A DNA stretch of 64,000 nucleotides. Source: a virus. The position numbers and the translations under genes are program-made. This document shows positions 16,370 to 39,588 of the stretch, in pieces (the stretch's first letter is position 1; the number at the start of each line of letters is the position of its first letter). Location: positions 28,903 through 92,902 of IMG/VR virus record IMGVR_UViG_3300044213_000060. One strand, written 5' to 3'. The notes below the pieces were generated by a model. The model did no database searches, was not told the DNA's origin, and saw only the letters and a list, made by a program, of their open reading frames with translations.

Positions 16370-17201
16370 TCATCAAGCACAACAGGGATTTTTAACATTA
16401 GCCATTGGCGCAGATTATCTACGTATGGCTTATGCACAAGCATTGAGTGTCAAAACTGCAATGCCTGATGCACTATATGCAGTGGCAGTTGATGCAGAAA
16501 CAAAACTATTGATTACAGATAAACACATGACAGTATTTGATTATGTAGTTGATGTTCCTGAATTTAACAATCCAATGCAAGCAGAGCCTGAGTTATTTTG
16601 GGTCACTCCGTTTAAAGAAACAATTAAGTTAGAAGCAGACTTGTTAATACCGCGCAACATCAACCATTGGTGGACGGCATTAAGGCACAGAGAGTTAGTT
16701 ATTAGTACCAACTGCAGAGACTATCGCGGCAACATTGTTGTGGATACAACATATAGACGATTATGGGCAGATAATAATTTACCAAATGTCTATAATGGTC
16801 TAATGTATTTTAGATTTACTAGAGAAAATTTAGAATTCTTTATGTTAGCACGTGATATATTTGCTAACTGGGATGCCATTAAAGAAGAATTAAAAAATTG
16901 TAGAGATGATGCGCCCGAAACAGATCAAGTATATGCATTGGCTGCTAGCATACACGGTGTTGAAAGATCTACTATGCCCAGTTTAGATTTTTTCACAATG
17001 ACCCACATGAAACCACACATACAAGGATGGCCGTATGACACAGTTTGGCCTACTGCGGTTATTACCGAAGTTTACGATTCAGTTATAAGAATTAATAATG
17101 TAGAACAACTGTATCCGTTTCATTATCATGAGAAAGACTGGCTAACTGAAGATATAATAAATACATATGAATCAATTAGATCCCTTAGAAGAATTTCTTA
17201 A
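16362..17201 (+). CDS. GT-A-like glycosyltransferase-related protein, second copy type
   Basis: This 279-residue protein overlaps the preceding gene by 8 bases. The N-terminus (L-T-L-A-I-G-A-D-Y-L-R-M-A-Y) and K-L-E-A-D-L-L-I-P at residues 89-97, where a D-x-D would sit, resemble GT-A enzymes. V-Y-N-G-L-M-Y-F-R near residue 155 resembles the acceptor-side strand of GT8-like proteins. The metal motif is E-A-D rather than a strict D-x-D, so catalytic activity is less certain than for its neighbour. Confidence 0.5.
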   Translation: MFNHQAQQGFLTLAIGADYLRMAYAQALSVKTAMPDALYAVAVDAETKLLITDKHMTVFDYVVDVPEFNNPMQAEPELFWVTPFKETIKLEADLLIPRNINHWWTALRHRELVISTNCRDYRGNIVVDTTYRRLWADNNLPNVYNGLMYFRFTRENLEFFMLARDIFANWDAIKEELKNCRDDAPETDQVYALAASIHGVERSTMPSLDFFTMTHMKPHIQGWPYDTVWPTAVITEVYDSVIRINNVEQLYPFHYHEKDWLTEDIINTYESIRSLRRIS

Positions 17202-18172: not shown

Positions 18173-19078
18173 ATGAAAAATCCTGAAATAATCGATGTAG
18201 CTGATCTTGATACAATATATTTGACATATGATGAACCTCAAAAAGAAGAATTCTGGATTAAAATCCAAAATATGGTACCTTGGGCAAAGCGTGTTGATGG
18301 AGTTAAGGGCAGCGATGCTGCCCATAAGGCCGCAGCCGATGCCAGTGAAACTGATCGTTTTGTGCTTATTGACGGAGATAATTTGCCCGACGCTGATTTC
18401 TTTAACCTGCAGTTACGTTTGGATAGTACCAATGCTGATTGCGTGTTTCGTTGGCGGGCTCGCAATAGTATAAACGGCCTAATGTATGGCAACGGCGGAA
18501 TGAGTTGTTGGACCAAAGACTTTGTTTATAATATGAAAACACACGAAGCATCCGACGGTGCTGATGATACTGCAGTGGAGTTTTGTTTTGACCCCAAATA
18601 TTGGGCCATGCACGACTGCTACTCAACTACATACCCAGACGCAACCCCATTCCAAGCATGGCGTGCTGGATATCGTGAAGGTGTTAAGATGTGTTTAGAC
18701 CGTGGCACTAAACCTACTATTGCCGAATTTGAGCAAAGAGTAAACGGCCGGAACTACGACAACTTATGCATTTGGCAATCAGTTGGAGCAGACAACCCCA
18801 ATGGTCTGTGGGCTATATATGGTGCACGACTAGGTACTATTATGACCATGAACGAAGAAACCTGGAACTATAGAGATGTGCAAGACTTTGATAAACTAAA
18901 AGACCTTTGGCAAACATTCGGCAAACTTGATCCGGCTAAAGAATTAGAAAAACTAACCAAGTCTTTAACTAATAGACTAGGATTGCCGGTTACATTATTA
19001 AATGCCGAAGCAAGCCGGTTCTTCAAGCATCATTATCGTGCAGTATTTCGAAATCAAGGACCAATGGTACGTGAGTAA
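18173..19078 (+). CDS. GT-A-like phage protein related to the 1404-residue repeat protein
   Basis: A 301-residue protein. Residues 15-70 (L-T-Y-D-E-P, A-K-R-V-D-G-V-K-G, A-H-K-A-A, then V-L-I-D-G-D-N) have the layout of a GT-A nucleotide-sugar-binding fold with D-G-D at 67-69. The segment F-Q-A-W-R-A-G-Y-R-E-G-V-K-M near residue 165 matches T-W-R-T-A-F-R-E-V-V-K-L near the C-terminus of the 1404-residue protein at 47750, suggesting shared ancestry. The start follows a poly-A tract without a clear Shine-Dalgarno sequence. A glycosyltransferase or sugar-binding role is inferred. Confidence 0.6.
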   Translation: MKNPEIIDVADLDTIYLTYDEPQKEEFWIKIQNMVPWAKRVDGVKGSDAAHKAAADASETDRFVLIDGDNLPDADFFNLQLRLDSTNADCVFRWRARNSINGLMYGNGGMSCWTKDFVYNMKTHEASDGADDTAVEFCFDPKYWAMHDCYSTTYPDATPFQAWRAGYREGVKMCLDRGTKPTIAEFEQRVNGRNYDNLCIWQSVGADNPNGLWAIYGARLGTIMTMNEETWNYRDVQDFDKLKDLWQTFGKLDPAKELEKLTKSLTNRLGLPVTLLNAEASRFFKHHYRAVFRNQGPMVRE

Positions 19079-19778
19079 TTTAACAGCAATTTCTTTTTAT
19101 CCCAGAGGCGGAGGAAATAGATACCTACGTTATATTAAGGGGGATGATTTTAGTTTACCAAATATGTCATATGATCAATTTATTAAAGATCAAATTTTAG
19201 AACATAGATATTTATTGTCAAGTCCGCCAAAAACCAATAATGATTTTGTACTAACGCATTGTGCTAATGTTAAAAGAATAAACGAAGTTCTTGCCCCGAC
19301 AAACATTATTTTTATAAAAACTGACTTTAAAAACAGTTTGCAAAGAGAATGGATGCTACATGGAAAATTTAGATATTCATCTACTAGAATTAAAAAAACT
19401 TATGATAAATTATTGTTAGAAACATATAACGATATCCGTGCTATGCATTGGCCAATAATTGATACGATAGATGAATTTTATTGTTTAAATGAAAACATAA
19501 AAAATGAAGTTATTACACAAATTAAAAATTTAACAATAAATGAAACGCTAAACTCGGCGTGGGCTACTATTTGCTGGCATCACCAATACTACGAACGCTA
19601 CACAGCTGATTGTAGAGTAGATGTTAATGTTGATAATGATAATAATGAATTTGCTAATATGATGCGTGAAGAGCTAGCAAGATATCCAAGTGAATTATTT
19701 GATTTTTGCTGGAAAATTTATACACAATATAGACCTAACGCTAAAATAACAGACTTATACGAAAATGACAAAAAGTGA
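19071..19778 (+). CDS. Unknown protein preceding the radical-SAM cluster
   Basis: A 235-residue protein from a GTG start at 19071 that overlaps the previous stop (GTGAGTAA); the frame is open further upstream to an ATG at 19002, but that would give a 77-base overlap. Recognisable features are S-F-Y-P-R-G-G-G-N-R-Y near the start, L-T-H-C-A-N near residue 60 and a W-P...I-D-E-F segment near residue 130. The family is unknown to me. It overlaps the first radical-SAM gene by 14 bases and is probably co-translated with it. Confidence 0.55.
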   Translation: MSNLTAISFYPRGGGNRYLRYIKGDDFSLPNMSYDQFIKDQILEHRYLLSSPPKTNNDFVLTHCANVKRINEVLAPTNIIFIKTDFKNSLQREWMLHGKFRYSSTRIKKTYDKLLLETYNDIRAMHWPIIDTIDEFYCLNENIKNEVITQIKNLTINETLNSAWATICWHHQYYERYTADCRVDVNVDNDNNEFANMMREELARYPSELFDFCWKIYTQYRPNAKITDLYENDKK

Positions 19779-21150
19779 TTTTATGGCTAGTGCCGAGTGG
19801 ATGAAAGATAATCTCGGCGAAGGCTTGTGTTTAGCTAAATGGAAGCAAGTTAGCCTGCATTTACCTACAGGCTTAAACAACAGTTGCTATCATCCTCCAC
19901 TGCATGCTATTGACGCCGATGTATTAAAAGACAATCCGGGAGCATTACATAATACAGCACACAAAAAAGCTCAACGTAAAATAATGCTTCGTCATGAACG
20001 TCCTGGTGAATGTCAATATTGCTGGAACATGGAAGACTTGGGTAAACTAAGTGATCGTCATTATAGATCTGGAGAACGTTGGGCCGCAGAGGAATATGAT
20101 ACAATTGTAAATAGTACAGGAGACGAAAACGATGTTATCCCTTCATACGTTGAGGTTAATTTTAACCACGCTTGTAATTTGGCTTGCAGCTATTGCAGTC
20201 CTCAGTTTAGCAGTACGTGGCAAACAGAAATCGACCGTTATGGTGGCTATCCTACTAGTACTATTCACAACGACCCTAGTCATTTCACTGGGCGCAATCG
20301 TCCTATTCCCGCCTCCACTGATAACCCCTATGTAACGGCATTTTGGGAATGGTGGCCCACTTTATATCCTAAATTAAAACACTTTCGTATGACTGGCGGT
20401 GAGCCATTAATGGACAAGAATACATACCGAGTATTTGATTATGTGTTGGCTATACCTAACCCAGAATTGCATTTAAATGTAACAAGTAATTTTAGTGTCG
20501 AAGATGCATTGTTTGAAAAATATATAAATTATGTAAAACAGTTATGCAGTACCAATATTGAACATTTCATGCAGTATGTAAGTTTAGATTCTGGAAAATA
20601 CACTCACGCCGAATATATTAGACACGGCTTAAACTTTCATCGTATGCAAAATAATGTGCATAGATTCCTTGGTGAGATTCCATATCGTAATAGTCTTACA
20701 TTTATTATTACAATGAATAATTTAAGTGTATTGGGCTTACAACAACAACTGGAATGGATATTGGATTTACGTAAATCCTATAGCTCAACTTATCAACGTG
20801 TATGGTTTGACACTCCAGTATTGCGTCGACCAGAATGGCAGAGCCTGCAACTGTTACCACCTGTGTATGCAGGAGTATTAGAACGTACTGCAGACTGGAT
20901 GGAAGCAAACTTAGAAACCCCAGATAAACCATTTTGTGGATTTAAAGATTATGAAGTTCAGCGTTTACGCAGAGACATAGCATGGATGCGAGAAGGTAGC
21001 AATCTAGACCCTGACTATGTTAAACTACACAAAGGGAACTTTTATCGATTCTTTAACGAACACGATAAACGTAGAAAAACAAATTTTTTATCAACTTTCC
21101 CGCAGATGAAAGAATTCTGGAAAGAATGTGAATACTATGCCAAAAATTAA
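19765..21150 (+). CDS. Radical-SAM protein 1 with N-terminal SPASM/twitch-like cysteines
   Basis: This 461-residue protein carries the radical-SAM cluster motif C137-x3-C141-x2-C144 (A-C-N-L-A-C-S-Y-C) and G-G-E-P at 211-214 for SAM binding. Before it lie four cysteines, C22-x18-C41-x41-C83-x2-C86, the arrangement expected for an auxiliary iron-sulfur cluster domain placed at the N-terminus instead of the usual C-terminus. The spacing is identical in the genes at 22267 and 23613, so the three form one subfamily. The C-terminus carries D-K-R-R...F...F-P. The reaction is unknown. It is the first of eight adjacent radical-SAM genes. Confidence 0.93.
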   Translation: MTKSDFMASAEWMKDNLGEGLCLAKWKQVSLHLPTGLNNSCYHPPLHAIDADVLKDNPGALHNTAHKKAQRKIMLRHERPGECQYCWNMEDLGKLSDRHYRSGERWAAEEYDTIVNSTGDENDVIPSYVEVNFNHACNLACSYCSPQFSSTWQTEIDRYGGYPTSTIHNDPSHFTGRNRPIPASTDNPYVTAFWEWWPTLYPKLKHFRMTGGEPLMDKNTYRVFDYVLAIPNPELHLNVTSNFSVEDALFEKYINYVKQLCSTNIEHFMQYVSLDSGKYTHAEYIRHGLNFHRMQNNVHRFLGEIPYRNSLTFIITMNNLSVLGLQQQLEWILDLRKSYSSTYQRVWFDTPVLRRPEWQSLQLLPPVYAGVLERTADWMEANLETPDKPFCGFKDYEVQRLRRDIAWMREGSNLDPDYVKLHKGNFYRFFNEHDKRRKTNFLSTFPQMKEFWKECEYYAKN

Positions 21151-22297
21151 TTTAGTAGAAAATAAGACATTTTGTATGCTACCTTTTATTCATACTATGT
21201 TAGATGAACACGATAATTTAAGACTTTGTTGTTTTTCTAATAAAGTAAAATCTTTCCCTGTTGATTTTAATTTTAAAAGCGACAAAATTCTTAATGATGT
21301 TAGATCAAAGATGCTAGTAGGCGATAAAGTATCTTATTGTGAAACATGCTATAGTATAGAGGACTCCGGAGGCGAAAGTTTTCGTAGTATAAATTCTCTG
21401 GAATGGATGGAAAAATTAGGTATATCAGACACTGATGATTTAGAACCAGAGTTAATTTATTACGACATACGTAATGATAATTTATGTAATTTAGCATGTA
21501 GAATTTGCCACCCGGCGGCAAGTAGTCAGTTAGAAAAAGAATATAAAAAACTCAATTGGGTAATATGGCCGCGTTCACCAAAATTAAAGATAACAGATAT
21601 TGTAAATTATTCTACAGTTAAAAAGATGTATATAGCCGGGGGCGAACCTACAATTATGCCATCATTTAGAGAATTTTTAGTTAAAGCAATCGAAAATAAT
21701 AGAACTGATATCGAGATAAGAATGTTAACCAATGCAACAAATCTAAACAAAGATATCTTGTCATTATTGTCTAATTTTAATCATCTAGAAGTATCTATTA
21801 GTATTGATGGGTTTGATGACGTAAACACTTATATAAGATGGCCAAGTGATTGGAATTCTATAGTAAACAATATAGAAAAAATACTAAAAATAACTAATTC
21901 TGTGTCTATCGGAATCGATGTAAATATTTGGAATATATGCAGTTTATATAAATTAATTGATTTTTTGGAGAATAAATTCCCGGGGGTAATTATTAATTTA
22001 ACTGAAGGATGGCCAACAGAAGGTATAAACATTAGACCATTTAATTTTCCAAATAAAGAATTGGCGGTCGAAAGATTAAATTTAATTAAACATTCTATTA
22101 CATACCAAACTAAAACTTTGTTTAAAAATAAAATTGATTATTTTATAACTCGAATTCAAACAGAACCTATAGATTATGATGCACTAAAAAAGTTTTTTAC
22201 CTATAATGATGCACTTGATGCTAGTAGAGAAGTTAAATTAAAAGATTATATACCGGAATTAGAAGCATGCCGAGAATTAATAACGAAACAGATTTAG
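21137..22297 (+). CDS. Radical-SAM protein 2 (SPASM-like N-terminus)
   Basis: A 386-residue protein from ATG 21137; a GTG at 21128 adds three residues. An N-terminal set C13...C31-C32...C68-x2-C71 has the spacing of SPASM domains, and the radical-SAM motif is C117-x3-C121-x2-C124 (L-C-N-L-A-C-R-I-C), with G-G-E-P at 168-171. It belongs with the C-x17-C-C subgroup (genes at 24950, 26259 and 28454) rather than with its immediate neighbours. It overlaps the previous gene by 14 bases and the next by 31, so the gene order looks fixed and co-translated. Confidence 0.92.
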   Translation: MPKINLVENKTFCMLPFIHTMLDEHDNLRLCCFSNKVKSFPVDFNFKSDKILNDVRSKMLVGDKVSYCETCYSIEDSGGESFRSINSLEWMEKLGISDTDDLEPELIYYDIRNDNLCNLACRICHPAASSQLEKEYKKLNWVIWPRSPKLKITDIVNYSTVKKMYIAGGEPTIMPSFREFLVKAIENNRTDIEIRMLTNATNLNKDILSLLSNFNHLEVSISIDGFDDVNTYIRWPSDWNSIVNNIEKILKITNSVSIGIDVNIWNICSLYKLIDFLENKFPGVIINLTEGWPTEGINIRPFNFPNKELAVERLNLIKHSITYQTKTLFKNKIDYFITRIQTEPIDYDALKKFFTYNDALDASREVKLKDYIPELEACRELITKQI

Positions 22298-23616
22298 AAT
22301 ACAAACACAGAGTGATTGATGTTAAGTCAACATCATTCTGTGGAGCAAAATGGTACAACGCCACTATCTGGTTGGGGTCAGGCATGACCACCAGTTGCCA
22401 TCACCCATTGCCGCATAAAGTGGAGGTTGGTGATGTAGTACGAAATCCCAAAGCATTGCACAACACGCAACAAAAAAAGATGGAGCGTGAACAAATGCAA
22501 AAAGGTGAACGACCAAGTGGTTGTGAATACTGCTGGAAGATAGAAGATATCGGCCGCGATAATATTAGTGACCGTGTTTATAAGACAGTTATCTATTCAG
22601 ATGAAGATTTAGCTTATGCATATCGTACTCCTGCAAGCCGAGATATTAATTTACAGACTCTTGAGATCGCCTTTGATCGTACTTGCCAGCTTGCTTGCAG
22701 TTATTGCAACCCAGCTTTCAGTTCTACCTGGGTCCGTGATATTGATCGTAATGGGCCTTATACCGATCTTGTCAGTGATGGCCGTAACCATTTTACGCAT
22801 AATCACAGATCATCGCAACTATACCGATTTGGCGAAGAAAATCCATATGTCACAGCCTTCCACAAATGGTGGGAATCAGATTTACATCGAACACTAAAAG
22901 AACTACGTATTACAGGTGGGGAACCGCTTATGTCAGGCGAAACGTGGCGACTTATTGATTGGTTTAAAAGTAACAAAGGTAAGTCAAAGACTAGGTTAGC
23001 CATTAACAGTAATTTAGGCCCCGATGTAGATATAGATCGTTTGTTAGATTCAATTGACGGGGTCGAAGTAGACTTATATACTAGTAATGAGTCTATGAGT
23101 TTGCAAGCAGAATATATTCGCGATGGTCTTGTGTTTGATGACTGGGCAAACAATGTAGAACGATTGCTTGATAGCGGTAAGTTTCGTGGACTACATGTTA
23201 TGTGTACAATAAATGCATTGTGTTTAGACAGTATTGATAGTTTTCTAGAATGCGTTTTACAATGGAAAACCGAATATGGTCAAGATGCTATTAATTTTAC
23301 ATTAAATATATTAAGGTTCCCAAGTTTTCAATCGCCATTGGTGTTTACTGATGATTTACGTTCTTATTACAAAAACAAGTTAGAAACTTGGTTTAAGAAT
23401 AATAAGCATTCAGAGTTTTTACATGAAATGGAACAAAATCAAGTTCAACGATTAATTGATTATCTTGATGTTGTTAAAACTCCGCATGCTGATGCCGCAG
23501 AAAGATCTATGCTAGAGAAAGATTTCAAACAGTTTTATACTCAATACGATTTAAGAAGAAATAAAAATTTTGTTGACGCATTTCCAAATATAGCAGACTG
23601 GTACAATTCGATATGA
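22267..23616 (+). CDS. Radical-SAM protein 3 (SPASM/twitch-like N-terminus)
   Basis: A 449-residue protein with C25-x18-C44-x41-C86-x2-C89 at the N-terminus and the radical-SAM motif C140-x3-C144-x2-C147 (T-C-Q-L-A-C-S-Y-C), followed by G-G-E-P at 217-220. It is a close paralogue of the next gene (shared S-T-S-F-C-G-A-K, W-W-E-S-D-L-H and L-K-E-L-R-I-T-G-G-E-P segments), so the pair arose by tandem duplication. The C-terminus has F-Y-T-Q-Y-D-L-R-R-N-K-N-F, a signature repeated in most members of the cluster. The substrate is unknown. Confidence 0.93.
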   Translation: MPRINNETDLEYKHRVIDVKSTSFCGAKWYNATIWLGSGMTTSCHHPLPHKVEVGDVVRNPKALHNTQQKKMEREQMQKGERPSGCEYCWKIEDIGRDNISDRVYKTVIYSDEDLAYAYRTPASRDINLQTLEIAFDRTCQLACSYCNPAFSSTWVRDIDRNGPYTDLVSDGRNHFTHNHRSSQLYRFGEENPYVTAFHKWWESDLHRTLKELRITGGEPLMSGETWRLIDWFKSNKGKSKTRLAINSNLGPDVDIDRLLDSIDGVEVDLYTSNESMSLQAEYIRDGLVFDDWANNVERLLDSGKFRGLHVMCTINALCLDSIDSFLECVLQWKTEYGQDAINFTLNILRFPSFQSPLVFTDDLRSYYKNKLETWFKNNKHSEFLHEMEQNQVQRLIDYLDVVKTPHADAAERSMLEKDFKQFYTQYDLRRNKNFVDAFPNIADWYNSI

Positions 23617-24953
23617 TCAAAGTATTCGATCCTTTAGAATATAAAAAAATAAAGATTGATAGCAAATCCACAAGTTTTTGTGGAGCAAAATATTATCTTG
23701 CAACTATGTGGCTACAAGCAGGAATGACGGCCAGTTGTCATCATAATCCTTCGCATGCAATAGATATTAACGAAATTGCATTAAATCCTAGTGCACTACA
23801 TAATACAAAACAAAAAAAACAAGAACGTGAAGATATGCGGCAAGGATTAAAACCCAGTGGTTGTCATTATTGTTGGAATATAGAATCTATTGGCGATCTA
23901 GCTGTAAGTGATAGAATTTGGAATAGTCATGCAAACAGTGATGAAGAATTAGATCGAGCTTTTGCAGCAGACTATGACGAAAATTTTAATTTAACTAGAT
24001 TGGAAATTAGTTTTGACAGAACTTGCCAATTCGCTTGTAGTTATTGTAGTCCATGGGTAAGTAGTTCATGGCACAAAGATATAAAAATAAACGGCACATA
24101 TAAAAATCTAGAGGTAGAAACTAGACGGCAATATACATCACCAGTAGACAACGATATGCCATATGCACCAAATGAATCTAATCCATATATAGATGCATTT
24201 TTTAAATGGTGGGAATCAGATCTACATAAAACATTAAAAGAACTACGCATCACTGGCGGGGAACCTTTTATGAGTGGACATTTTTGGAGATTGATAGGTT
24301 GGCTACAACATCATAAAGATCAAACAACTGCAACATTTGCTATTAACACTAATCTCGGTTATAATATAAATGAATTAGAGAAATTGTTTAATAAAATAAA
24401 TGGGAATAATGTAGCCTTTTATGTTAGTATTGAATCCGTCGGAGGAAAAAGTGAATATGCACGTGATGGGTTAGATTGGAACGTATTTCATAACAATTTA
24501 GAATATCTTTTTAAACAAAACTGTAAAGTATACATAATGAGTACAGTGAGTGCTATAACATTAGACGGAATGGTTGATTTTTTAGAATACAGCATGAACT
24601 ACAAACTTAAATACGGAATTTCTATATTACAATATACTATAGCTATAGTAGATCATCCTAATTTCCAAAGCCCACTAGTATTACCCTACTATATAAGAAA
24701 ACAATATGCAGACGAAATACAACAATGGGTTAACAAATATAAACACAATTATCCCATGATCTTGCAAGAAGAATCGCATATTGAGAGATTAATACAATTT
24801 TTAAAAACTCCTGACTCAGAAGAAATAAACGGAGTCCCAATAAAAGATTTAAGATCTGGATTTAAAAGTTTTTTCACACAATATGATCAACGAAGAGGAA
24901 AAAGTTTCACAGACACTTTTCCTAGATTAGCAGAATGGTACAACACACTATGA
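23613..24953 (+). CDS. Radical-SAM protein 4 (paralogue of protein 3)
   Basis: A 446-residue protein with C23-x18-C42-x41-C84-x2-C87, then C138-x3-C142-x2-C145 and G-G-E-P at 215-218. It overlaps the stop of the previous gene by 4 bases (ATGA). It is the closest relative of protein 3 in the window, with the same length and C-terminal F-F-T-Q-Y-D-Q-R-R segment. Retaining both copies with all cysteines intact suggests that they do distinct jobs or form a heteromer (inference). Confidence 0.93.
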   Translation: MIKVFDPLEYKKIKIDSKSTSFCGAKYYLATMWLQAGMTASCHHNPSHAIDINEIALNPSALHNTKQKKQEREDMRQGLKPSGCHYCWNIESIGDLAVSDRIWNSHANSDEELDRAFAADYDENFNLTRLEISFDRTCQFACSYCSPWVSSSWHKDIKINGTYKNLEVETRRQYTSPVDNDMPYAPNESNPYIDAFFKWWESDLHKTLKELRITGGEPFMSGHFWRLIGWLQHHKDQTTATFAINTNLGYNINELEKLFNKINGNNVAFYVSIESVGGKSEYARDGLDWNVFHNNLEYLFKQNCKVYIMSTVSAITLDGMVDFLEYSMNYKLKYGISILQYTIAIVDHPNFQSPLVLPYYIRKQYADEIQQWVNKYKHNYPMILQEESHIERLIQFLKTPDSEEINGVPIKDLRSGFKSFFTQYDQRRGKSFTDTFPRLAEWYNTL

Positions 24954-26272
24954 GTATACAAAAAAATTATGATTACCTGTCTAGATATCCTATGTATATT
25001 GACAAAAATCAATTAACTGAACAACAAGAATTTCGTCTTGTTAAAAGTGATCGTTTTTGCATGATGCCATGGGTTCATATGCATGCGTTTCCGGATGGTC
25101 GTGCATATCCGTGTTGTCTAAGTGATTACTGGCACCCGGTTGGGGATTTGCGTAAAAATACAATGCAGGAAGTCTGGAACCAAAACAGGTATAAAACAAT
25201 GCGCAGAAATATGTTAAATGACAAGCCGTCTAAGGAGTGCGTAAAATGTTATGAACAAGAACAACACGGTGCATTCAGCATGCGTAATGACGCTAATAGA
25301 AACTATGGACATCACATTGCTGAAGTAGATAAAACTACTGAAGATGGTGAAAATCCAGATTTTAAAATTCGTTATTGGGATGTTAGATTTAGCAATCTTT
25401 GTAATTTTAAATGCCGTACCTGTGGTCCTATTTTTAGCAGCAATTGGTACAACGACCATGTAAAATTATTTGGTGTAGTTCCGGATGTATTATCACGACC
25501 CATGGAGCGAGTAGAATATACTACTGGTACTGAAGATGGCATGCTTGCACAAATGGAAGAACATATCCCTTACCTTGAGCAAGTTTATTTTGCTGGTGGT
25601 GAGCCACTTATTATGAAAGAACATTATTACCTGCTTGAAAAATTAATCGAGTACGGTAAAACAGATGTTAGAATTTTATATAATACCAACTTTAGTGAAT
25701 TGCATTATAAAGATAAACATGTATTTGAATATTGGCGGCATTTTAAAAATGTCAGTGTTGGTGCAAGTTTAGATGCTAGTGGTTCAAGAGCAGAATTGAT
25801 GCGTAGTGGTACGGACTGGCAGCAAACACTAGATAATCGTCGTCGCATGATGAAAGAAGTTCCGCATGTAGATTTTTATGTAGGCTCCACAGTAAGTTCA
25901 ATGAATGTGCTGCATGTGTTAGACTTTCATAGAGAGTGGACCGAATTAGGATTAATACGAGCAAAAGATTGGAATGTAAATATTTGTCAAAGTCCGGATT
26001 GTTATAGAGCAGATATATTTCCGGAACAGTTTAAACAGGAAGTTATTAAACCTGCATATGAACGACATATAGAGTGGATCGACAGCCAAGATAATCTAAG
26101 ACGTGCAACCAACGGTTTTAAAAGTATGTTAAGTTTTATATTAAACAATAACGGAGTAGAACATTGGGGTAAATTTATTGAAGAAATTAACAGACTTGAT
26201 CAAGTAAGAAATGAAAATTTTTGGAAAACATTTCCTGAACTTGCAGAATTAAAAAATTATGAACCTACCTAA
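24950..26272 (+). CDS. Radical-SAM/SPASM protein 5
   Basis: A 440-residue protein. The ATG at 24950 overlaps the previous stop (ATGA); the frame extends to 24935 but that start is less likely. The N-terminal domain is the clearest SPASM match in the cluster: C37-M-M-P-W, F-P-D-G-x-x-Y-P-C55-C56, G-D-L, E-V-W-N, and C97-x2-C100. The radical-SAM motif is C151-x3-C155-x2-C158 (L-C-N-F-K-C-R-T-C), with G-G-E-P at 216-219. SPASM proteins usually act on peptides, sometimes on sugars, with auxiliary clusters binding substrate or carrying electrons. Here the SPASM-like part precedes the barrel. Confidence 0.93.
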   Translation: MSIQKNYDYLSRYPMYIDKNQLTEQQEFRLVKSDRFCMMPWVHMHAFPDGRAYPCCLSDYWHPVGDLRKNTMQEVWNQNRYKTMRRNMLNDKPSKECVKCYEQEQHGAFSMRNDANRNYGHHIAEVDKTTEDGENPDFKIRYWDVRFSNLCNFKCRTCGPIFSSNWYNDHVKLFGVVPDVLSRPMERVEYTTGTEDGMLAQMEEHIPYLEQVYFAGGEPLIMKEHYYLLEKLIEYGKTDVRILYNTNFSELHYKDKHVFEYWRHFKNVSVGASLDASGSRAELMRSGTDWQQTLDNRRRMMKEVPHVDFYVGSTVSSMNVLHVLDFHREWTELGLIRAKDWNVNICQSPDCYRADIFPEQFKQEVIKPAYERHIEWIDSQDNLRRATNGFKSMLSFILNNNGVEHWGKFIEEINRLDQVRNENFWKTFPELAELKNYEPT

Positions 26273-27473
26273 TACTATTTGTATGTTGCCTTGGATTAGC
26301 ATAGAAACTAGTCCTGTTGGAACTGCACGCCCATGTTGTATGGCACACGAAGAAATCACCGACGAACACGGGGAAAAATACGATTTAAATCAAACTGATT
26401 TAACCACGATATACCGTAGTGAATATATGCAAAATTTGCGCAGGCAATTTCGCAATGGCCTAAAACCTGAAACATGCTCGCGATGCTGGGATGAAGAAGA
26501 CGCCGGCAGAACCAGTAAACGATTGCACACACAAGATCGATTGAAGGAACTATTTGCACAAGTTGATTGGACCAATGATAACCCTGAACAACTGTGGTTT
26601 ATTGATTTAAAGTTAGGCAATATCTGTAATTTAAAATGTCGTATCTGCGGTTCGTGGTCTAGCAGTAAATGGGCCGAAGAAGAACTAGCATACATGCCCG
26701 AATTAGAAGATAAAAAATCTCATCTTGCATACAAACTGCTACGTGCCGGAGCATGGCCTCGTAAAACAGAAACATTTTGGGACGATTTAAAATCACTGCT
26801 ACCTAACATCAAATACTTTGAGTTTACTGGCGGCGAACCCTGGATGATTCAAGAACATTTTGACCTTCTACAATATGCAGTGGATACGGGGCATAGTCAT
26901 CATATTGATATTCACTATAATACTAATGGTTCCCAGTGGCCTAAGAATCCGCTATTATGGAAAGAATTTGGCCGGGTGGATATTGCATTCAGTATTGACA
27001 ATGTGGGCGATCGATTTGAGTATGAACGCTATGGTGCCAAGTGGGATGAAGCAAATAAAATTATTGATGCCACACATGTTTTAAAAGATACAAGTTTACC
27101 AAATATTACCACACAACTTTGCTTTACGATCAACGTACAAAATGTTTACTACTTAGATGAACTTCTTGCGTGGGCAGATACAAAAGGATTTGGAGATATC
27201 TATTTTAACATGATGCATGGCCCTGCACACATGAGTGTTCAATACATGCCCTTGGCTGCTAAAGAATTAGTATTAAACAAATTAAAAACAACATCTTGGA
27301 CAACCAATAATTATCAACAAGAAATTAACAATATTATTAATTTTATTGAATTAGGTCCTGGCAGCGACGGAAAAGAATTTTTAATTAAAATGAAAATAAC
27401 GGATCAATATCGCCGACAAAACTTTATGGATACACATCCAGAAATAGCTGCAGCAATGGGTTATGGACGCTGA
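26259..27473 (+). CDS. Radical-SAM/SPASM protein 6
   Basis: A 404-residue protein overlapping the previous gene by 14 bases. N-terminal SPASM-like set: C8-M-L-P-W, R-P-C26-C27, and C73-x2-C76-W. Radical-SAM motif C123-x3-C127-x2-C130 (I-C-N-L-K-C-R-I-C) and G-G-E-P at 191-194. The C-terminus ends with D-Q-Y-R-R-Q-N-F-M-D-T-H-P, matching the tail signature of proteins 1, 3, 4 and 5. No cobalamin-binding domain is present, so B12-type methyl transfer is unlikely. Confidence 0.92.
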   Translation: MNLPNTICMLPWISIETSPVGTARPCCMAHEEITDEHGEKYDLNQTDLTTIYRSEYMQNLRRQFRNGLKPETCSRCWDEEDAGRTSKRLHTQDRLKELFAQVDWTNDNPEQLWFIDLKLGNICNLKCRICGSWSSSKWAEEELAYMPELEDKKSHLAYKLLRAGAWPRKTETFWDDLKSLLPNIKYFEFTGGEPWMIQEHFDLLQYAVDTGHSHHIDIHYNTNGSQWPKNPLLWKEFGRVDIAFSIDNVGDRFEYERYGAKWDEANKIIDATHVLKDTSLPNITTQLCFTINVQNVYYLDELLAWADTKGFGDIYFNMMHGPAHMSVQYMPLAAKELVLNKLKTTSWTTNNYQQEINNIINFIELGPGSDGKEFLIKMKITDQYRRQNFMDTHPEIAAAMGYGR

Positions 27474-28473
27474 TTTAATATTTCACCGGCAACATAGAAA
27501 TTTGCCTTCGCCAAAAACAGTTACTAATACCTGTGACTGGCCATGGCATCAATTAAACATTGACAGCCAAGGGCGATTGTTTGTCTGCGGGTGTGATGCA
27601 TGGGTACCGTTTAGTGCAGGTACTGTAAATGATTTTGGTAGTTTTGCACAGGTGTTTGCAAGTCCGGTTGCACAGCAAGTACAAAATGCTATTACCGCAG
27701 GTACATTTGATTACTGCGATACCCGCCATTGCGGAGTTATGCAAAACAATCAAACAACACAATATGATTATTATTTGCATATAGGTATAGATGACAGTTG
27801 TAATTTGTTATGTCCAAGCTGTCGAAAAGATAAAATATTTAGAAGTGATGCTGAATGGATTGATCCTAGACTACAATGGATAGAACAAATAAATCAATGG
27901 ATACAACAAGTTCCTGATAAGACGGTACATATTATGATAGGTGCAAATGGTGATCCATTTGCAAGTTTAATTTATAGACACTTGATTAAACGTGTTGATT
28001 TCGCTCAAAATGTCAGTTTTAGTTTTCGCACCAATGGATTGTTAATGCAAAAACATCTGGCAGAATTTACCATACTGCCCAGGATACGCAATTTAGATAT
28101 TAGCATAGATGCCGCAACTGCTAAAACCTATGCTATTACACGTCGTGGCGGTGATTGGGACATACTAATAGAAAATTTAAAATTTGCTCAGAGTATAAAA
28201 GAACAGTACAATATTAATCTTGTTGGCAATTTCGTAGTACAACGTGCAAACTTTAGAGAAGTTCCTGAATTTGCACAATTGTGTTGGCAGTACGAGTTAG
28301 TGCCTAGTTATCAAATATTACAAGATTGGGGTACATACAAAAACTTTAAAGAAGAATGTGTACATTTCACTGATAGCCTACACTATAATGAATTCTGCCA
28401 AATATTTAAAGACGCCAGCTGGCAAACAGACAAGATTTATTTAAACGCGGTCCATGAGTATATTAAAACCTGA
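27463..28473 (+). CDS. Radical-SAM protein 7, divergent
   Basis: The shortest member (336 residues), overlapping the previous gene by 11 bases. Cysteines C24, C42, C44, C85 and C90 form a looser N-terminal set; the radical-SAM motif is C113-x3-C117-x2-C120 (S-C-N-L-L-C-P-S-C). The usual G-G-E-P is replaced by G-A-N-G-D-P at 160-165. A D-I-S-I-D-A-A segment near residue 214, common in SPASM enzymes, is present. The altered SAM-binding motif and shorter tail set it apart, but the three cluster cysteines are intact, so activity is expected. Confidence 0.88.
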   Translation: MDADLIFHRQHRNLPSPKTVTNTCDWPWHQLNIDSQGRLFVCGCDAWVPFSAGTVNDFGSFAQVFASPVAQQVQNAITAGTFDYCDTRHCGVMQNNQTTQYDYYLHIGIDDSCNLLCPSCRKDKIFRSDAEWIDPRLQWIEQINQWIQQVPDKTVHIMIGANGDPFASLIYRHLIKRVDFAQNVSFSFRTNGLLMQKHLAEFTILPRIRNLDISIDAATAKTYAITRRGGDWDILIENLKFAQSIKEQYNINLVGNFVVQRANFREVPEFAQLCWQYELVPSYQILQDWGTYKNFKEECVHFTDSLHYNEFCQIFKDASWQTDKIYLNAVHEYIKT

Positions 28474-29758
28474 TACACTATGTATGGCTCCGTGGACTCA
28501 CACATATCTAAGTCCACAAACAGAAAGACGCATGTGCTGTGCGTCGCGAGAGCCTGCGCAGAATTTTCAGCAGTATATTGATACTGGTAGTGGTACTGGT
28601 CAGTATATACCGATCACTTTGGATGAACATTGGAATGGGGAGCATCTAAGATCAGTGCGCCTGCGCATGTTGCGCGGGGAAACCCTCCCAGAGTGTGAAG
28701 TATGCAATGACAAGCTATTGAACACTGATGTTTACCGTAGTTATTTTAATCAACTGTTTGGGCATAAGTACGATAGTGTAATTGAAACTACAGATAGCAC
28801 GGGTTATACAACAATGAAACCAGTGTCGTGGGATTATCGTTTTAGTAATCTCTGTAATTTCAAATGCCGTATGTGCGGAGACATGTTAAGCAGTGCTTGG
28901 GAGTCAGAGCAACGCCAACACAACATGGTCGATTATGCTAATCCAAAAAATAATTGGATGCGACCTGAAGTCAAGCAACAAATTGAACAGTTTCAATCTA
29001 CTCAAGTAGAGCAAGAATTTGCCGATGCAGTTGAAGAACACCGTGTCGAAGAGGTCTACTGGGTAGGAGGAGAACCGTTGATGTACGAACAACACTGGAA
29101 GTACATGCAACGTATTGTTGAATTAGGAGATGGACCAAATGTTTACGCACGTTACAACACCAACCTTTCAAGGGTTCGTTACAAAGGTGTTAATTTATAC
29201 AGCGATATTCTTGGGCATTTGCGCGATTGGCAAATTTGTGCGTCAATTGATGGCACCGGCCAAATCGGAGAATACATCCGAACAGGCCTTGACTATGATC
29301 AATGGCTTAGAAACTTCCGTGAAGGAGTTGAGATCGCAACTAACCGACGTCAAATGCGAATTGACTTCACACTCACATTGCCAGGTATGTTCGAAACCCA
29401 TAACATTATGCGATTGTCGCGAGAGCTAGATGTAGATATACTAGCTAAAGTAATTTTTAGTTTTAGCCCGGACATAGTTATGTCACCTTTAGCCCTACCT
29501 AGAGAACTTTTAGAACCCTGGATAGACGAAACAATTAGCAAATTAGCAAGTGGTAGCAACCCGTTAAAGGATATACTTGTCCAACTAAAAACTAGACCTA
29601 CATTTGCGGAACAATGGCCCAATGAATATGCCAACGCCATTGCTCGAGGCAAGGCTCGTGTGTTAAAATTAGAAAGTATACGCACACAGCCTATTACAAT
29701 GGCCGAAATATTAAAGGAAAGACCTGATGTCTACAACTGGTGGCAATCAATTGCTTGA
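28454..29758 (+). CDS. Radical-SAM/SPASM protein 8
   Basis: A 434-residue protein overlapping the previous gene by 20 bases. SPASM-like N-terminus with C10-M-A-P-W, R-M-C28-C29 and C81-x2-C84; radical-SAM motif C134-x3-C138-x2-C141 (L-C-N-F-K-C-R-M-C) and G-G-E-P at 205-208. The stretch R-F-S-N-L-C-N-F-K-C-R is shared with protein 5, marking these two as the closest pair outside proteins 3 and 4. It ends the run of eight; the next gene overlaps it by 32 bases. Confidence 0.93.
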   Translation: MSILKPDTLCMAPWTHTYLSPQTERRMCCASREPAQNFQQYIDTGSGTGQYIPITLDEHWNGEHLRSVRLRMLRGETLPECEVCNDKLLNTDVYRSYFNQLFGHKYDSVIETTDSTGYTTMKPVSWDYRFSNLCNFKCRMCGDMLSSAWESEQRQHNMVDYANPKNNWMRPEVKQQIEQFQSTQVEQEFADAVEEHRVEEVYWVGGEPLMYEQHWKYMQRIVELGDGPNVYARYNTNLSRVRYKGVNLYSDILGHLRDWQICASIDGTGQIGEYIRTGLDYDQWLRNFREGVEIATNRRQMRIDFTLTLPGMFETHNIMRLSRELDVDILAKVIFSFSPDIVMSPLALPRELLEPWIDETISKLASGSNPLKDILVQLKTRPTFAEQWPNEYANAIARGKARVLKLESIRTQPITMAEILKERPDVYNWWQSIA

Positions 29759-30836
29759 TCAATTTGAAATAGTTTTACAGGATAATAATGATCCACTAAC
29801 TGTTTATGTTGATGTGTATGACAATTCACTTGGCCGTAAATGGCTATCTGCACTTAATGATTTAATTGCAAACAATTATCACCTTGAAAAGAATTACTGT
29901 TTTTTTGGATTTGTCAATAGCAAGCGCAATGGTCAGTATATGCTTAATCAAGTAAATCAGTCAATCTCTGCAATTAATAATGCTAATTTAGGATATCACA
30001 TAGATGATTATTTTTCCATGGATAATTGTATCAGTGATAAATCCGAAGATGGTAGAGCATTTGGCAGAAACATTGTGCACGATAAATTTAATCATCTGCA
30101 TAGATATTTTGAAGACCTTCAAGGAGTTAGCGGACAAATGTCGCCGTTCTATCAACAAGCCAATGACGCAATACGTTGGCATATACGACAATTAAATTTA
30201 TTGTGTCACGAATTTGAATCTTGGGCACTTAGTTATCGTAAACAAATAGAAGCACCAGAATGGCAACGGCCCAGCCAATTGATGTGTTGGTTGCATGCCC
30301 CTCGGTTCACGCTAGATGAAGAAGATTATGAATTATTTGGTGTTGACACTATAAATCGCAGTCTCGGGGGAGTCTATGTTGGAGTTAATAAAGCGGTTGG
30401 CAAACATCATTGGGAAGTATTTAATGACGAAGGTAGAGATAGTAGGATAGATGAATTAACAACAACAACACTAAGAAGTCAAACCGAAGCTGCCGGAGAT
30501 TTTGATATAGAATGGGCAAACGATCCTGGAAAATATCATTGGCAACAGCGCAGACTACAAGAATTCAGAGATTGGCTTACTGCAAACAACTTTGACCCTG
30601 ATGATAAAAGTTTAACCATAGGACATCCAAAAGTTGGACAAGTTGATTTAGTTCGTAGTTTTGGTACAGAAAATTATGAAATAATCTGGCGCTTATTGTT
30701 GGATAGATTAAATGTGCAGAGTATATCTACATCTACTGCACAAGCTGTATACAACTATAATTGGTCCAACGCTGATTATATGCAACAACAAATTGAAAGT
30801 TTAAAACCAGGATATGATCTTAGTAGCCGGGGGTGA
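29727..30836 (+). CDS. Unknown protein linked to the radical-SAM cluster
   Basis: A 369-residue protein with no motif I recognise. It is rich in Trp, Asn, Asp and His (for example G-R-N-I-V-H-D-K-F-N-H-L-H near residue 113 and C-W-L-H-A-P-R-F near 187), and G-G-V-Y-V-G-V-N-K-A-V-G-K-H-H-W near 214 could be a binding loop. Its 5' end overlaps radical-SAM gene 8 by 32 bases and its 3' end overlaps the next gene by 23, so it belongs to the same translational unit and may act with the radical-SAM proteins. Confidence 0.65.
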   Translation: MSTTGGNQLLDQFEIVLQDNNDPLTVYVDVYDNSLGRKWLSALNDLIANNYHLEKNYCFFGFVNSKRNGQYMLNQVNQSISAINNANLGYHIDDYFSMDNCISDKSEDGRAFGRNIVHDKFNHLHRYFEDLQGVSGQMSPFYQQANDAIRWHIRQLNLLCHEFESWALSYRKQIEAPEWQRPSQLMCWLHAPRFTLDEEDYELFGVDTINRSLGGVYVGVNKAVGKHHWEVFNDEGRDSRIDELTTTTLRSQTEAAGDFDIEWANDPGKYHWQQRRLQEFRDWLTANNFDPDDKSLTIGHPKVGQVDLVRSFGTENYEIIWRLLLDRLNVQSISTSTAQAVYNYNWSNADYMQQQIESLKPGYDLSSRG

Positions 30837-31548
30837 TAGTTTTATTTTTGGAAATGAATTAACAGATTGGCAATTAAATAAATCAACGCCAAGTAAATTT
30901 ACATTTCCTGCGCTAATTGCAGATTATCTAAGGTTAGATTATTCATGTTGTGCAATACCAGGAAATGCCAATGATGCTATTGCAAGAATGACCATAGATA
31001 GATGCGAAATGCTGTTAAACGAAGGCAAACAAGTTGCAGTGATAGTCGCTTGGACTTTCCCGGAAAGATTTGAATTTCCCTTTGAATTTGAAATTAACAG
31101 CCCTATTAGCCCATGGTCAAGCATTACTGTAAATGATCTAATCAATAAACCTGAAACAAGAAGTTTTGCACGAGAGTTTTATAAAAATATTAATTCTGGT
31201 TGGTTTGCAGAATACAATACAGTAAAAAACATAATTATGCTAGAACAATATTTAAAATCGAAAAATATCAATTATGTTTTTACTGTTGCAGACAACATAC
31301 TTTTAAAAAATCGAAACGATCAAGCATTAAAACCCTATTGGGATTTAATAGATTTTGATTCTTGGTTTCTATTTCCTGCGGCAACAGAGCCACATAATAC
31401 TGTAACACCAAGAGGTTTTTACCAATGGGCTCAAGAGAATAAATATCCAGTAGGCCCTGATCAACATCCACTTGAGCAAGCACATCAAATAGCCGCCACA
31501 CTAATCCAGGAGAAATTTAATGAAATGGTTAAAAAATCTGTACAATAA
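30814..31548 (+). CDS. SGNH-hydrolase-like protein
   Basis: A 244-residue protein with block I G-G-D-S-F-I-F-G at residues 6-13 (nucleophile Ser in G-D-S), a G-N-A-N-D segment near residue 50, and a C-terminal P-D-Q-H-P-L-E-Q-A-H supplying the Asp-x-x-His pair. These are the parts of an SGNH/GDSL esterase or acyltransferase; O-acetyl-esterase activity on glycans is a common role. One of five such proteins in the window. It overlaps the previous gene by 23 bases. Confidence 0.72.
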   Translation: MILVAGGDSFIFGNELTDWQLNKSTPSKFTFPALIADYLRLDYSCCAIPGNANDAIARMTIDRCEMLLNEGKQVAVIVAWTFPERFEFPFEFEINSPISPWSSITVNDLINKPETRSFAREFYKNINSGWFAEYNTVKNIIMLEQYLKSKNINYVFTVADNILLKNRNDQALKPYWDLIDFDSWFLFPAATEPHNTVTPRGFYQWAQENKYPVGPDQHPLEQAHQIAATLIQEKFNEMVKKSVQ

Positions 31549-31621
31549 AATTGTACTGGAAATTCGCTATCGTAAAAAACTACGAGAACTACGCAAAAGA
31601 GATCCGTTTATTTACAAATGA
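31520..31621 (+). CDS. Small basic protein, 33 residues
   Basis: A short gene starting at ATG 31520, 8 bases after a strong Shine-Dalgarno AGGAGA. It overlaps the end of the SGNH gene by 29 bases and its TGA overlaps the next ATG (ATGA). The product is amphipathic then highly basic (Y-R-K-K-L-R-E-L-R-K-R) and ends D-P-F-I-Y-K, an ending I associate with tiny proteins of T4-like marine phages. The role is unknown; the Shine-Dalgarno sequence and coupled overlap make it a real gene. Confidence 0.7.
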   Translation: MKWLKNLYNKIVLEIRYRKKLRELRKRDPFIYK

Positions 31622-32280
31622 TTCAAAGTATTTTAACAATCGGTGATAGCTTTACCTACGGTGAAGAATTAGATAATCGGGAACATGCCTGGCCTTATTA
31701 TCTTGCACGAGGACTAAAAGCCGATGTAGTAAATTTAGGTCAGCCCAGTGCCGGCAACACCGGAATGGTTCGCAAGGCCATGAGTTATAGTGTAACCGAT
31801 GCTCCTGTGGACCTAGTTATAGTAGCATGGTCGAGTGCAGGACGCATGGAGTTTGCTGACGAAAATGGCACCTATGATATATGGCCCGGGTATCTTGGCG
31901 GTAAGTTTACAAGAGACGATCAACTCTGGAGATTTGAAATATTAGAATATATCAACAAATATCATAGTCCAGAATATTTGTTCCAACAATATCTCGTAAA
32001 CATAATATCATTGCAGAGTTTTTTCAAAGCTAACAATCAACGATATCTAATGTTAGATATTGTTGGGCGAGACTACTATAAAAATACATATACAACACGC
32101 ATGCCTCAATTGGCAGGAATGGTTGACCCTACATATTTTATTGGGTGGCCCAATGATGGCATGGCAGAATGGACACAAGGATGTAGACGTGGCTCAGGTG
32201 GGCATTTTCTAGAAGATGGTCACAAGAAAGTGACTGCAAAAATTTATGAACATATTCGGAATCTCGGCTGGATTTCATGA
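31618..32280 (+). CDS. SGNH-hydrolase-like protein
   Basis: A 220-residue protein with block I G-D-S-F-T-Y-G-E-E-L at residues 9-18, P-S-A-G-N-T-G-M near 45 (block II Gly and block III Asn), and C-terminal G-G-H-F-L-E-D-G-H-K-K providing the catalytic Asp and His. The set of SGNH elements is the most complete among the five such proteins here. Likely an esterase or acyltransferase, substrate unknown. Its stop lies inside the carbamoyltransferase gene (35-base overlap). Confidence 0.75.
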   Translation: MIQSILTIGDSFTYGEELDNREHAWPYYLARGLKADVVNLGQPSAGNTGMVRKAMSYSVTDAPVDLVIVAWSSAGRMEFADENGTYDIWPGYLGGKFTRDDQLWRFEILEYINKYHSPEYLFQQYLVNIISLQSFFKANNQRYLMLDIVGRDYYKNTYTTRMPQLAGMVDPTYFIGWPNDGMAEWTQGCRRGSGGHFLEDGHKKVTAKIYEHIRNLGWIS

Positions 32281-33760
32281 TGCAGCCATAACAGTATTGC
32301 AGGACAACAAAATTGTCTTTGCAGGGCACGCTGAACGATACAGCAAAAGAAAAAACGATGCTAATCTCAATGACGATCTTGTTGCAGATGCTTTATCTTA
32401 TGGCAATCCAGATCAAATAGTGTACTACGAACGTCCTTGGATTAAGAAATTACAACAACTATATTCGGGACAGTACAATGAAGCTGCAAATTTTGATAAT
32501 TTTACTATTGGTCAGCATATTCGCAAATATATACATGTTCCTGTTCATCAGGAGCGACTACTATCTTGCCCTAGACGAAATATGTCCCATCATTTATCAC
32601 ACGCTGCCGCGGGATTCCAAACAAGTCCTTACCAAAAAGCCACAGTTGTGGTTATAGATGCTATCGGTGAATTAGATACCGTTAGTATTTACGGTGCAGA
32701 GTATGTTAATGGGCGGGCTCAGTATCGAAAACTATGGGGACAACGTTATCCACATAGCATAGGATTATTTTATAGTGCAATGACACAAGCAGTTGGATTA
32801 AAGCCTAACGAAGAAGAATATATAATGATGGGCATGAGTGCATATGGTACTGATGCTGTAATCACAGATGGGCTATCTACGGTTATAAAAAATAAATTTG
32901 TTGCAGACGAATATGCAATTGAATTTAAGGAAAACTTACATGCAGGTGCTGATTTGCATCCATTTGATTATTTAGAAAAAGAAGATATTGCTTATGGTGC
33001 ACAACGATTAGCTGAACGTTTGATATACAATGTTATGCATCGTGCTAAGATGTTCGACTTTAGTTCAAACTTGGTTTATATGGGCGGTGTGGCACTTAAC
33101 TGTTTAGCAAATAGAAACTTAGGAGATTATTTTGATAATATATGGATTATGCCTAATCCTGGTGATGCTGGCAGTAGCCTGGGCGCTGCCGCCCTTGCTT
33201 ATGGCGGTCCTCTTGTGTGGCGCGATGCTTACCTTGGGACTAATATTGCCGGTGACTATCCTGTTAATGGATTGTTGGATACTTTACTCACTGAAAAAAT
33301 TGTCGGAGTTGCCTCGGGACGAGCAGAATTCGGGCCCAGGGCACTAGGCAATCGTAGTTTGTTAGCGGACCCAAGAGGGCCAGATATAAAGGATCGTGTA
33401 AATGAAATTAAACGAAGACAAAAATTTCGACCTTTTGCCCCAGTTATTCTGGAAGAGATGGTTGATGAGTACTTTGATGTTCCTCGTGGTTGGAGTGACA
33501 GCAGGTATATGCAGCTCGTCGGTAAGTGTAGGCGTCCTGACTTATTTCCTGCTATCGTTCACGTGGATGGGACTAGTCGTATTCAGACCGTTCCACAAGA
33601 TGGATCAGGAATAAGACAACTGTTAGAAAAATGGTATGTAATGACAGATTGCCCAATGTTGTTAAATACTAGTTTGAACATACGCGGAGAACCTATGGTT
33701 AATGACCGCGCAGATGCTGATAGATTTGAAAAAATGTATAACGTAAAGGTATGTAGTTAA
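32246..33760 (+). CDS. NodU/TobZ-family O-carbamoyltransferase
   Basis: A 504-residue protein with the two-domain layout of NodU/CmcH/TobZ enzymes, which activate carbamoyl phosphate with ATP and pass the carbamoyl group to a hydroxyl, often on a sugar. The N-terminal Kae1-like domain has H11-D12 and the metal-site motif H-H-L-S-H at 115-119, with D138 in V-V-I-D-A. The C-terminal domain shows E-F-G-P-R-A-L-G-N-R-S, F-R-P-F-A-P-V and L-N-T-S-L-N near the end. All key segments are present. Placed between SGNH and ferredoxin genes, it suggests carbamoylation of a glycan or nucleotide sugar. Confidence 0.9.
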   Translation: MNIFGISAGFHDAAITVLQDNKIVFAGHAERYSKRKNDANLNDDLVADALSYGNPDQIVYYERPWIKKLQQLYSGQYNEAANFDNFTIGQHIRKYIHVPVHQERLLSCPRRNMSHHLSHAAAGFQTSPYQKATVVVIDAIGELDTVSIYGAEYVNGRAQYRKLWGQRYPHSIGLFYSAMTQAVGLKPNEEEYIMMGMSAYGTDAVITDGLSTVIKNKFVADEYAIEFKENLHAGADLHPFDYLEKEDIAYGAQRLAERLIYNVMHRAKMFDFSSNLVYMGGVALNCLANRNLGDYFDNIWIMPNPGDAGSSLGAAALAYGGPLVWRDAYLGTNIAGDYPVNGLLDTLLTEKIVGVASGRAEFGPRALGNRSLLADPRGPDIKDRVNEIKRRQKFRPFAPVILEEMVDEYFDVPRGWSDSRYMQLVGKCRRPDLFPAIVHVDGTSRIQTVPQDGSGIRQLLEKWYVMTDCPMLLNTSLNIRGEPMVNDRADADRFEKMYNVKVCS

Positions 33761-34821: not shown

Positions 34822-34825
34822 TAAA

Positions 34826-39195: not shown

Positions 39196-39200
39196 ATAAA

Positions 39201-39222
39201 AAAGGGGCCGAGGCCCCTTTTT
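39201..39222 (+). terminator. Intrinsic terminator
   Basis: AAAGGGGCC pairs with GGCCCCTTT around a 2-base loop and is followed by two more T residues. It lies 6 bases after the AAA+ stop codon and is the strongest hairpin in the window. Confidence 0.92.
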
Positions 39223-39240
39223 AACACACTTGGAGTTTTT

Positions 39241-39516: not shown

Positions 39517-39556
39517 AAAGTGTTGCAAAAATACAACATACCGCCGTACAAAAGTG

Positions 39557-39565: not shown

Positions 39566-39588
39566 ATAAACATATTAAGGAGAAAGCA

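Follow-up and report, generated by a model that had tools for sequence, protein, structure and literature searches.

Phages with multiple radical S-adenosylmethionine (SAM) genes have already been published, as have radical-SAM cassettes within host-recognition islands. In the pelagimyophages these islands are rich in glycosyltransferase family 8 (GT8) genes and radical-SAM cassettes form a difference between two related phages, and freshwater (Fonsibacter) phages are described as having no radical-SAM genes (accessible part of PMC7029224). The T4-like ocean virus TARA_ERS488813_N000010 carries 12 radical-SAM superfamily genes, which were counted as iron-sulphur (Fe-S) proteins, its gene order and families not being analysed in the accessible part of that paper (PMC5332604). 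Here we describe a 64,000-nucleotide stretch of viral DNA (the window; positions 28903-92902 of the 92.9-kb IMG/VR record IMGVR_UViG_3300044213_000060, itself a fragment) with a run of eight radical-SAM genes, R1 to R8, five of which recur in fixed order in related phages. The explanation that we favour, at a probability of about 50%, is that these five are a conserved set of enzymes, encoded in what is probably the host-recognition/tail-fibre region of T4-like aquatic phages, that most likely remodels a surface glycan. The locus resembles the pelagimyophage and cyanomyophage host recognition cluster in its probable T4-like tail-fibre setting and GT8-like genes, and TARA_ERS488813_N000010 in having many radical-SAM genes in a T4-like genome, but the accessible part of PMC7029224 mentions neither an ordered core nor fusions nor any counterpart in bacteria. 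Neither the ordered module, its fusions and its cellular counterpart nor any paper on an N-terminal twitch domain with radical SAM was found in the searchable literature, which covers few subscription journals or preprints. Among cultured phages, the T4-like Vibrio phages K566/K567 and KVP40-like phages have a few (6 matches in K566) or one N_Twi-like gene, 21-28% identical, and not the core set; searches of cultured phages with R3, the glycosyltransferase-2 (GT2)-like protein and the genes starting at 14230, 15268 and 29727 gave no match, so no isolate is known with the module.

The eight genes are consecutive, overlapping open reading frames (ORFs) on the plus strand at 19765-29758. As the original prediction, made from the sequence alone, had claimed, each protein has one intact CX3CX2C motif with four or five cysteines upstream of it, seven have GGEP where R7 has GANGDP, and overlaps of 4 to 31 bases couple all of the genes (23, 31, 4, 19, 14, 11 and 20 nucleotides in order, then 32 from R8 into the next gene; the ORFs were called mechanically as the longest frames, and these lengths depend on start choice). 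It described the upstream cysteines as mostly SPASM-like in order; we find two patterns, C-x18-C-x41-C-x2-C in R1, R3 and R4 and C-x17-CC...CxxC in R2, R5, R6 and R8, and a deviating set in R7 (C24, C42, C44, C85, C90) that contains CX4C. All but R7 pass the NCBIfam model NF033640 (N_Twi_rSAM, cut-off 170 bits) over their full length at 253-392 bits: R1 (19765..21150, 295 bits), R2 (21128..22297, 253 bits), R3 (22267..23616, 278 bits), R4 (23613..24953, 275 bits), R5 (24935..26272, 392 bits), R6 (26259..27473, 347 bits) and R8 (28454..29758, 294 bits). R7 (27463..28473) is a divergent radical-SAM protein with an N-terminal SPASM-like region and falls outside the model at 47.6 bits. The Pfam radical-SAM family PF04055 is over its cut-off in R2, R5, R6 and R7 and under it in R1, R3, R4 and R8, whilst the SPASM family PF13186 is over its gathering threshold in R5 (48 bits, the clearest SPASM/twitch domain of the eight) and R6 (25.8 bits), under it in R7 (E 0.001) and R8, and unmatched in R1-R4.

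Among the 836 viral relatives that are at least 300 amino acids long, 772 combine the N-terminal four-cysteine set with CX3CX2C, so the arrangement is not due to chance. An alignment of 53 diverse relatives has seven invariant cysteines, namely C42, C60, C102 and C105 in the N-terminal part (R5 numbering) and the three of the radical-SAM motif. The best solved match to a profile of the N-terminal part is BtrN (E 9e-4), and because all four cysteines align with the auxiliary-cluster region of BtrN, the N-terminal part is predicted to be a twitch domain set before the barrel and not after it. R5, the one protein of the eight that was folded, gave a confident AlphaFold2 model (predicted local distance difference test, pLDDT, 94; predicted template modelling score, pTM, 0.90) that matches radical-SAM barrels, its likeness to solved enzymes being confined to the barrel at template modelling scores of about 0.3-0.4. 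The SPASM/twitch-type assignment of the original prediction is borne out by PF13186 on R5 and R6, by the BtrN alignment and by this invariance, but not as a novelty, since the N-terminal-twitch architecture is an already named family, NF033640; that model is silent on the five sub-lineages, slots and fusions described below.

To compare loci, results of a viral scan with R5 and a second scan were pooled and duplicates removed, leaving 93 distinct loci that hold both R1 and R8. The scans were seeded with R5, R8 or the family of the gene at 29727, loci without these are under-sampled, and many of the viral records are fragments; orthologues were assigned by best hit and identity cut-offs, then checked by tree for a sample. 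The order R1-R3-R5-R6-R8 held in all 59 complete loci of a first comparison, and the 93 loci contain no violation of it. All five core genes were separate best hits in 80 of the 93, and 13 lacked one or two by that count. Six of these 13 read R1-R3-R5-R8, and loss of R6 was rejected for those examined, as their long proteins split into R5::R6 fusions (L133, L150, L154 and L155; 837-852 amino acids). Such fusion proteins, of 837-862 amino acids and some of them near-identical, occur in seven loci in total (the four above and L157, L158 and L103), their R5/R6 being at 52-58% identity in six and at 46% in L103. A different fusion, of R8 with an accessory radical-SAM protein, is seen in L145 and L151. 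Neighbouring core genes overlap or sit no more than 10 nucleotides apart in every case, and there is therefore no space for a precursor peptide gene between them.

Counted from R1 to R8, the commonest number of radical-SAM genes is five (49 of the 93 loci), and the window, with eight, is alone among them in having that many. Accessory radical-SAM genes mostly occupy the R1-R3, R6-R8 and R5-R6 slots. In the window these are R2, which sits in the R1-R3 slot, has no orthologue in most loci and forms a long branch in the trees; R4, which is 45% identical to R3 and falls within the wider R3 clade; and R7, which groups with other R6-R8 inserts in the quick tree. The unit is therefore five genes and not eight, with R2, R4 and R7 as optional inserts, and where the original prediction saw at least two interleaved subfamilies there are five core lineages and three accessory genes. 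The run of eight is indeed striking, as it had said, but is not unique: viral records hold up to 16 N_Twi matches each, three of five genomes of Bdellovibrionota hold 26-37, and the ocean virus above has its 12 (PMC5332604, accessible part). R5 and R6 each come in two versions, one ~70% and the other ~47% identical to the window's protein, and the two genes switch version together (Spearman 0.81); this co-variation together with the R5::R6 fusions points to R5 and R6 being direct partners.

Five separate clades, one each for R1, R3, R5, R6 and R8, were recovered twice, in a quick tree (112 proteins) and in a careful one (73 proteins); the fused L150 protein is mislabelled R5 in the former and excluded from the latter. 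All five clades mix genes from freshwater phages with genes from marine phages (L172, L173 and L178), and all include one or more genes of L176, a contig from the chromosome of a Bacteriovoracaceae bacterium, whose array lies between an obgE, rsfS, rlmH and gpmI side and an lgt side; several bacterial neighbour genes, these included, were named by eye. Support for the grouping of phage and L176 genes is 100/98 for R1, 100/100 for R3, 100/98 for R5, 100/99 for R6 and 100/100 for the R8 clade, which has further Bdellovibrionota members inside it. L176 and L200 have members of all five core clades in a gene order unlike that of the phages. It follows from the mixed clades that the five lineages predate these phages, and that at least one bacterium has them together, though in another order. 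R8-type genes were found in 7 of 129 genomes of this bacterium's class (E ≤ 1e-60). The metagenome-assembled genome labels of L172, L173 and L178 conflict (Pelagibacter, Betaproteobacteria and Verrucomicrobia) and the contigs look like phages binned with these genomes, so no host is inferred from them.

The fixed-order core, the two kinds of fusion and the complete counterpart set in a bacterial chromosome strongly suggest a multi-step pathway, and it is very probable that the five core genes belong to a single one; the original prediction had proposed a pathway for all eight, but these are not one unit, R2, R4 and R7 being accessory. Genes scattered singly without conserved neighbours, the pattern that would have spoken against a pathway, are not what the 93 loci contain. 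The opposite view, in which separate auxiliary enzymes were gathered by chance in a hypervariable island and each acts on a different host metabolite, could draw on the variability of the accessory members, on the single N_Twi-like genes of KVP40-like Vibrio phages and on the frequency of Fe-S proteins in T4-like ocean phages (accessible part of PMC5332604), but it sits poorly with five orthologues in fixed order, with the overlaps, fusions and R5/R6 co-variation, and with a matching five-lineage bacterial set. We regard it as very improbable overall; the order and fusions largely refute it for the core, and for R2, R4 and R7 it is possible.

Identities to the window's proteins, taken as medians of best hits across 72 loci (some medians mix paralogues), differ along the region. 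The core proteins have medians of 70-76%, R8 being the best conserved at 75.6%; the GT2-like protein has 70% (58 loci) and the carbamoyltransferase 65%, whilst the upstream virion-like, small and GT8-like neighbours and the partner gene at 29727 have 38-51%. Those of the window's context genes whose positions are given below as start..end are on the plus strand. Upstream of the module lie a tail-fibre-like/virion protein (12731..14215), which matches the tail-fibre family phrog_19602 at E 1e-8 as well as further families of virion proteins, and a protein found in 49 loci (14230..15195) whose virion label is inferred from its neighbours and composition. These are followed by two GT8-like glycosyltransferases, a (15557..16369, with a DSDYF motif) and b (16362..17201), the first being part of a GT8-like alignment, mostly of b-type members, whose profile matches glycogenin (E 1.9e-5), and by a GT2-like protein with a DGDN motif upstream of the core (18173..19078), whose family gives weak matches to PF13641 in 13 of its 23 members (E 0.0012 at best). 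Between these conserved genes an ORF on the minus strand (17514-18092) reads by eye like a GIY-YIG endonuclease and has no relatives in the compared loci; a 1404-residue ORF, also on the minus strand (47750-51964), is joined by similarity to the GT2-like family and has no Pfam hit. The location in a T4-like tail-fibre region is tentative: PHROG matches upstream of the module are to virion and tail-fibre families, and L010 has portal-, baseplate- and gp46/47-like ORFs, recognised by eye.

Downstream, R8 overlaps by 32 nucleotides a conserved partner (29727..30836) that stands first after R8 in 61 of 66 loci and second in the other 5, and whose model has a pLDDT of 87. Its family has relatives in at least 546 viral stretches, with ~51 positions invariant in 40 sequences, many of which end in PGYDYSSR. 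Next are two SGNH-like proteins, a (30814..31548), which has no Pfam hit of its own and belongs to the same sequence cluster as its paralogue, with which it aligns, and b (31618..32280), which is SGNH/GDSL-like (PF19547, E 1.3e-9; PF13472, E 5.5e-6, under its cut-off). A Nol/CmcH-type carbamoyltransferase (32246..33760; PF16861, 5.7e-48; PF02543, 1.5e-39; phrog_1601, 1.4e-94) is present in 84 of 92 loci compared and is directly followed by a ferredoxin with Fer4 and DUF3470 domains (33761..34081; PF11953, 2.5e-16; PF00037, 3.4e-8), a possible electron donor that is not conserved in related loci; no A-type carrier or IscU gene of the kind reported in PMC5332604 was found among ten small proteins of the window, which comes from a fragment. 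Further on are a P-loop kinase-like protein with a DUF2061 membrane domain (34787..35446; PF09834, 2.5e-16; PF01583, 1.6e-5; in 42 loci), an NAD-dependent sugar epimerase/dehydratase (45746..46702; PF01370, 3.1e-35) and a DegT/DnrJ/EryC1 sugar aminotransferase (46653..47762; PF01041, 2.5e-70). At 38083-40842 an ATPase gene (phrog_1297) precedes one for a DUF2201 metallopeptidase/VWA-like protein. Related phage loci also have AMP-ligase, halogenase, aminotransferase III and B12 radical-SAM genes; in one viral contig (L101:13304-16010) AMP-ligase and tryptophan-halogenase genes are adjacent, near the module. Downstream of the module, ~40 viral loci (e.g. L104:12605-13633), mostly those with the second R5/R6 version, have a conserved StrB/AGAT-type amidinotransferase gene on the other strand.

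In five Bdellovibrionota genomes we found 10-37 N_Twi family matches per genome, some of the species also having PqqD-like or exporter genes. Four genomes (G033, G034, G036 and G037; 16-37 matches each) have arrays with PP-loop, aconitase-like, carbamoyltransferase, dioxygenase-like and B12-radical-SAM-like genes, as read by eye. Carbamoyltransferases and StrB-like amidinotransferases lie beside the Bdellovibrionota N_Twi arrays, a Wzm/Wzt-type exporter is found about 4 kb from an R3 relative, and in G094 an R8 relative sits between genes that read by eye as glmU and glmS. A glycan substrate is favoured by the glycosyltransferases, carbamoyltransferase, SGNH proteins and sugar genes of the phages and by the exporter and glmU/glmS of Bdellovibrionota, and also by BtrN, the best solved match to the N-terminal part, which acts on an aminocyclitol. 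On these gene neighbours in phages and bacteria, we give a glycan substrate about even odds.

The main rival is that the core modifies a peptide or protein, either a virion protein, for example one of the Thr/Ser-rich proteins encoded upstream, or a peptide encoded elsewhere of the kind that is ribosomally synthesised and post-translationally modified (RiPP), which the glycosyltransferases and carbamoyltransferase then decorate. Characterised SPASM/twitch radical-SAM enzymes mostly act on peptides or proteins, and virion genes stand directly upstream of the core in the phages. PqqD-like (RiPP recognition element) genes keep this explanation alive: one lies within about 350 bp of an R3 relative in G118, G083 and G084, an association typical of peptide modification, and such genes adjoin N_Twi radical-SAM genes in L205, L206, L207 and L208. 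Yet two of these three genomes (L206/L207) have, within a few kb of the PqqD loci, glycosyltransferases and a Wzm/Wzt-type exporter of the O-antigen kind, and a PqqD match was found in none of 24 viral records. The overlapping core genes likewise speak against it, as no conserved ORF of at least 40 amino acids was found between them in the compared loci (shorter or distant precursors lie outside this count), and the virion neighbours diverge far faster than the core enzymes. We therefore consider modification of a peptide or protein unlikely, though more credible than the other alternatives.

A diffusible small molecule, for example one derived from an aminocyclitol or an amino acid and directed at competitors or serving the host cell, would account for the resemblance to natural-product gene sets of the BtrN-like twitch domain, the StrB-like amidinotransferases, the carbamoyltransferase, the DegT aminotransferase and the halogenase and AMP-ligase near L101, as well as for the PP-loop, aconitase-like and B12-radical-SAM-like genes of the bacterial arrays. 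The phage loci, however, showed neither an exporter nor a carrier protein, several of these genes belong to neighbouring operons, to the opposite strand or to a part of the loci only, and the glycosyltransferases are constant companions of the module; we find this explanation improbable. Hypermodification of phage DNA or nucleotides has in its favour that T4-like phages modify their DNA and that the window encodes a thymidylate synthase (ThyA) and a dihydrofolate reductase (DHFR), but these are 15 kb away, the module is part of the tail-fibre region and apart from the replication genes, and the compared loci have no conserved nucleotide-modification partner, which leaves this the least credible of the alternatives.

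Remodelling of a surface glycan has points against it as well, the PqqD-like genes being one. The GT2 assignment of the protein at 18173 is weak (a PDB profile search with its family gave nothing useful), and the partner at 29727 has no PDB match at E ≤ 0.001 and in a fold search retrieved only unnamed phage proteins. Some context genes are unstable between phages, and carbamoyltransferases of the same type occur in cyanophages and so are not diagnostic. In the marine-phage contigs L172 and L173, R8 precedes R6, and taken with the other order of the bacterial set this means that the order cannot be essential to the chemistry.

If the module does remodel a glycan, R1, R3, R5, R6 and R8 would act as one set, presumably in sequence, on one product, with a direct hand-over between R5 and R6. 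The product would be an unusual glycan or amino-sugar decoration, whose chain may be built by the two GT8-like and one GT2-like phage glycosyltransferases, whilst the radical-SAM enzymes would oxidise or dehydrogenate, epimerise or dehydrate its sugar units or perform C-C chemistry on them, such as bond formation, and the carbamoyltransferase and SGNH proteins would finish it. Optional radical-SAM, SGNH and other inserted genes may vary the product among phages. The decoration could sit on the tail fibres of the virion or on the surface of the infected cell, and its benefit might be altered host recognition or the exclusion of competing phages. More tentatively still, T4-like aquatic phages and Bdellovibrionota may share a new radical-SAM assembly line of five enzymes, whose product would be a remodelled surface glycan of a new class, varied by accessory enzymes inserted among the core genes as the phages diversify.

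Long enzyme pathways are rare in phages, and here five radical-SAM enzymes are kept together and in order, their sequences more constrained than those of the tail proteins beside them. The phages are metagenomic, and the phage collection searched contains no cultured phage closely related to them. The counterpart in Bdellovibrionota means that the role of N-terminal-twitch enzymes, which concerns all of NF033640, might be learnt from a laboratory-tractable bacterium. If the module does act on a glycan, radical chemistry would join the means by which phages alter surfaces and host recognition.

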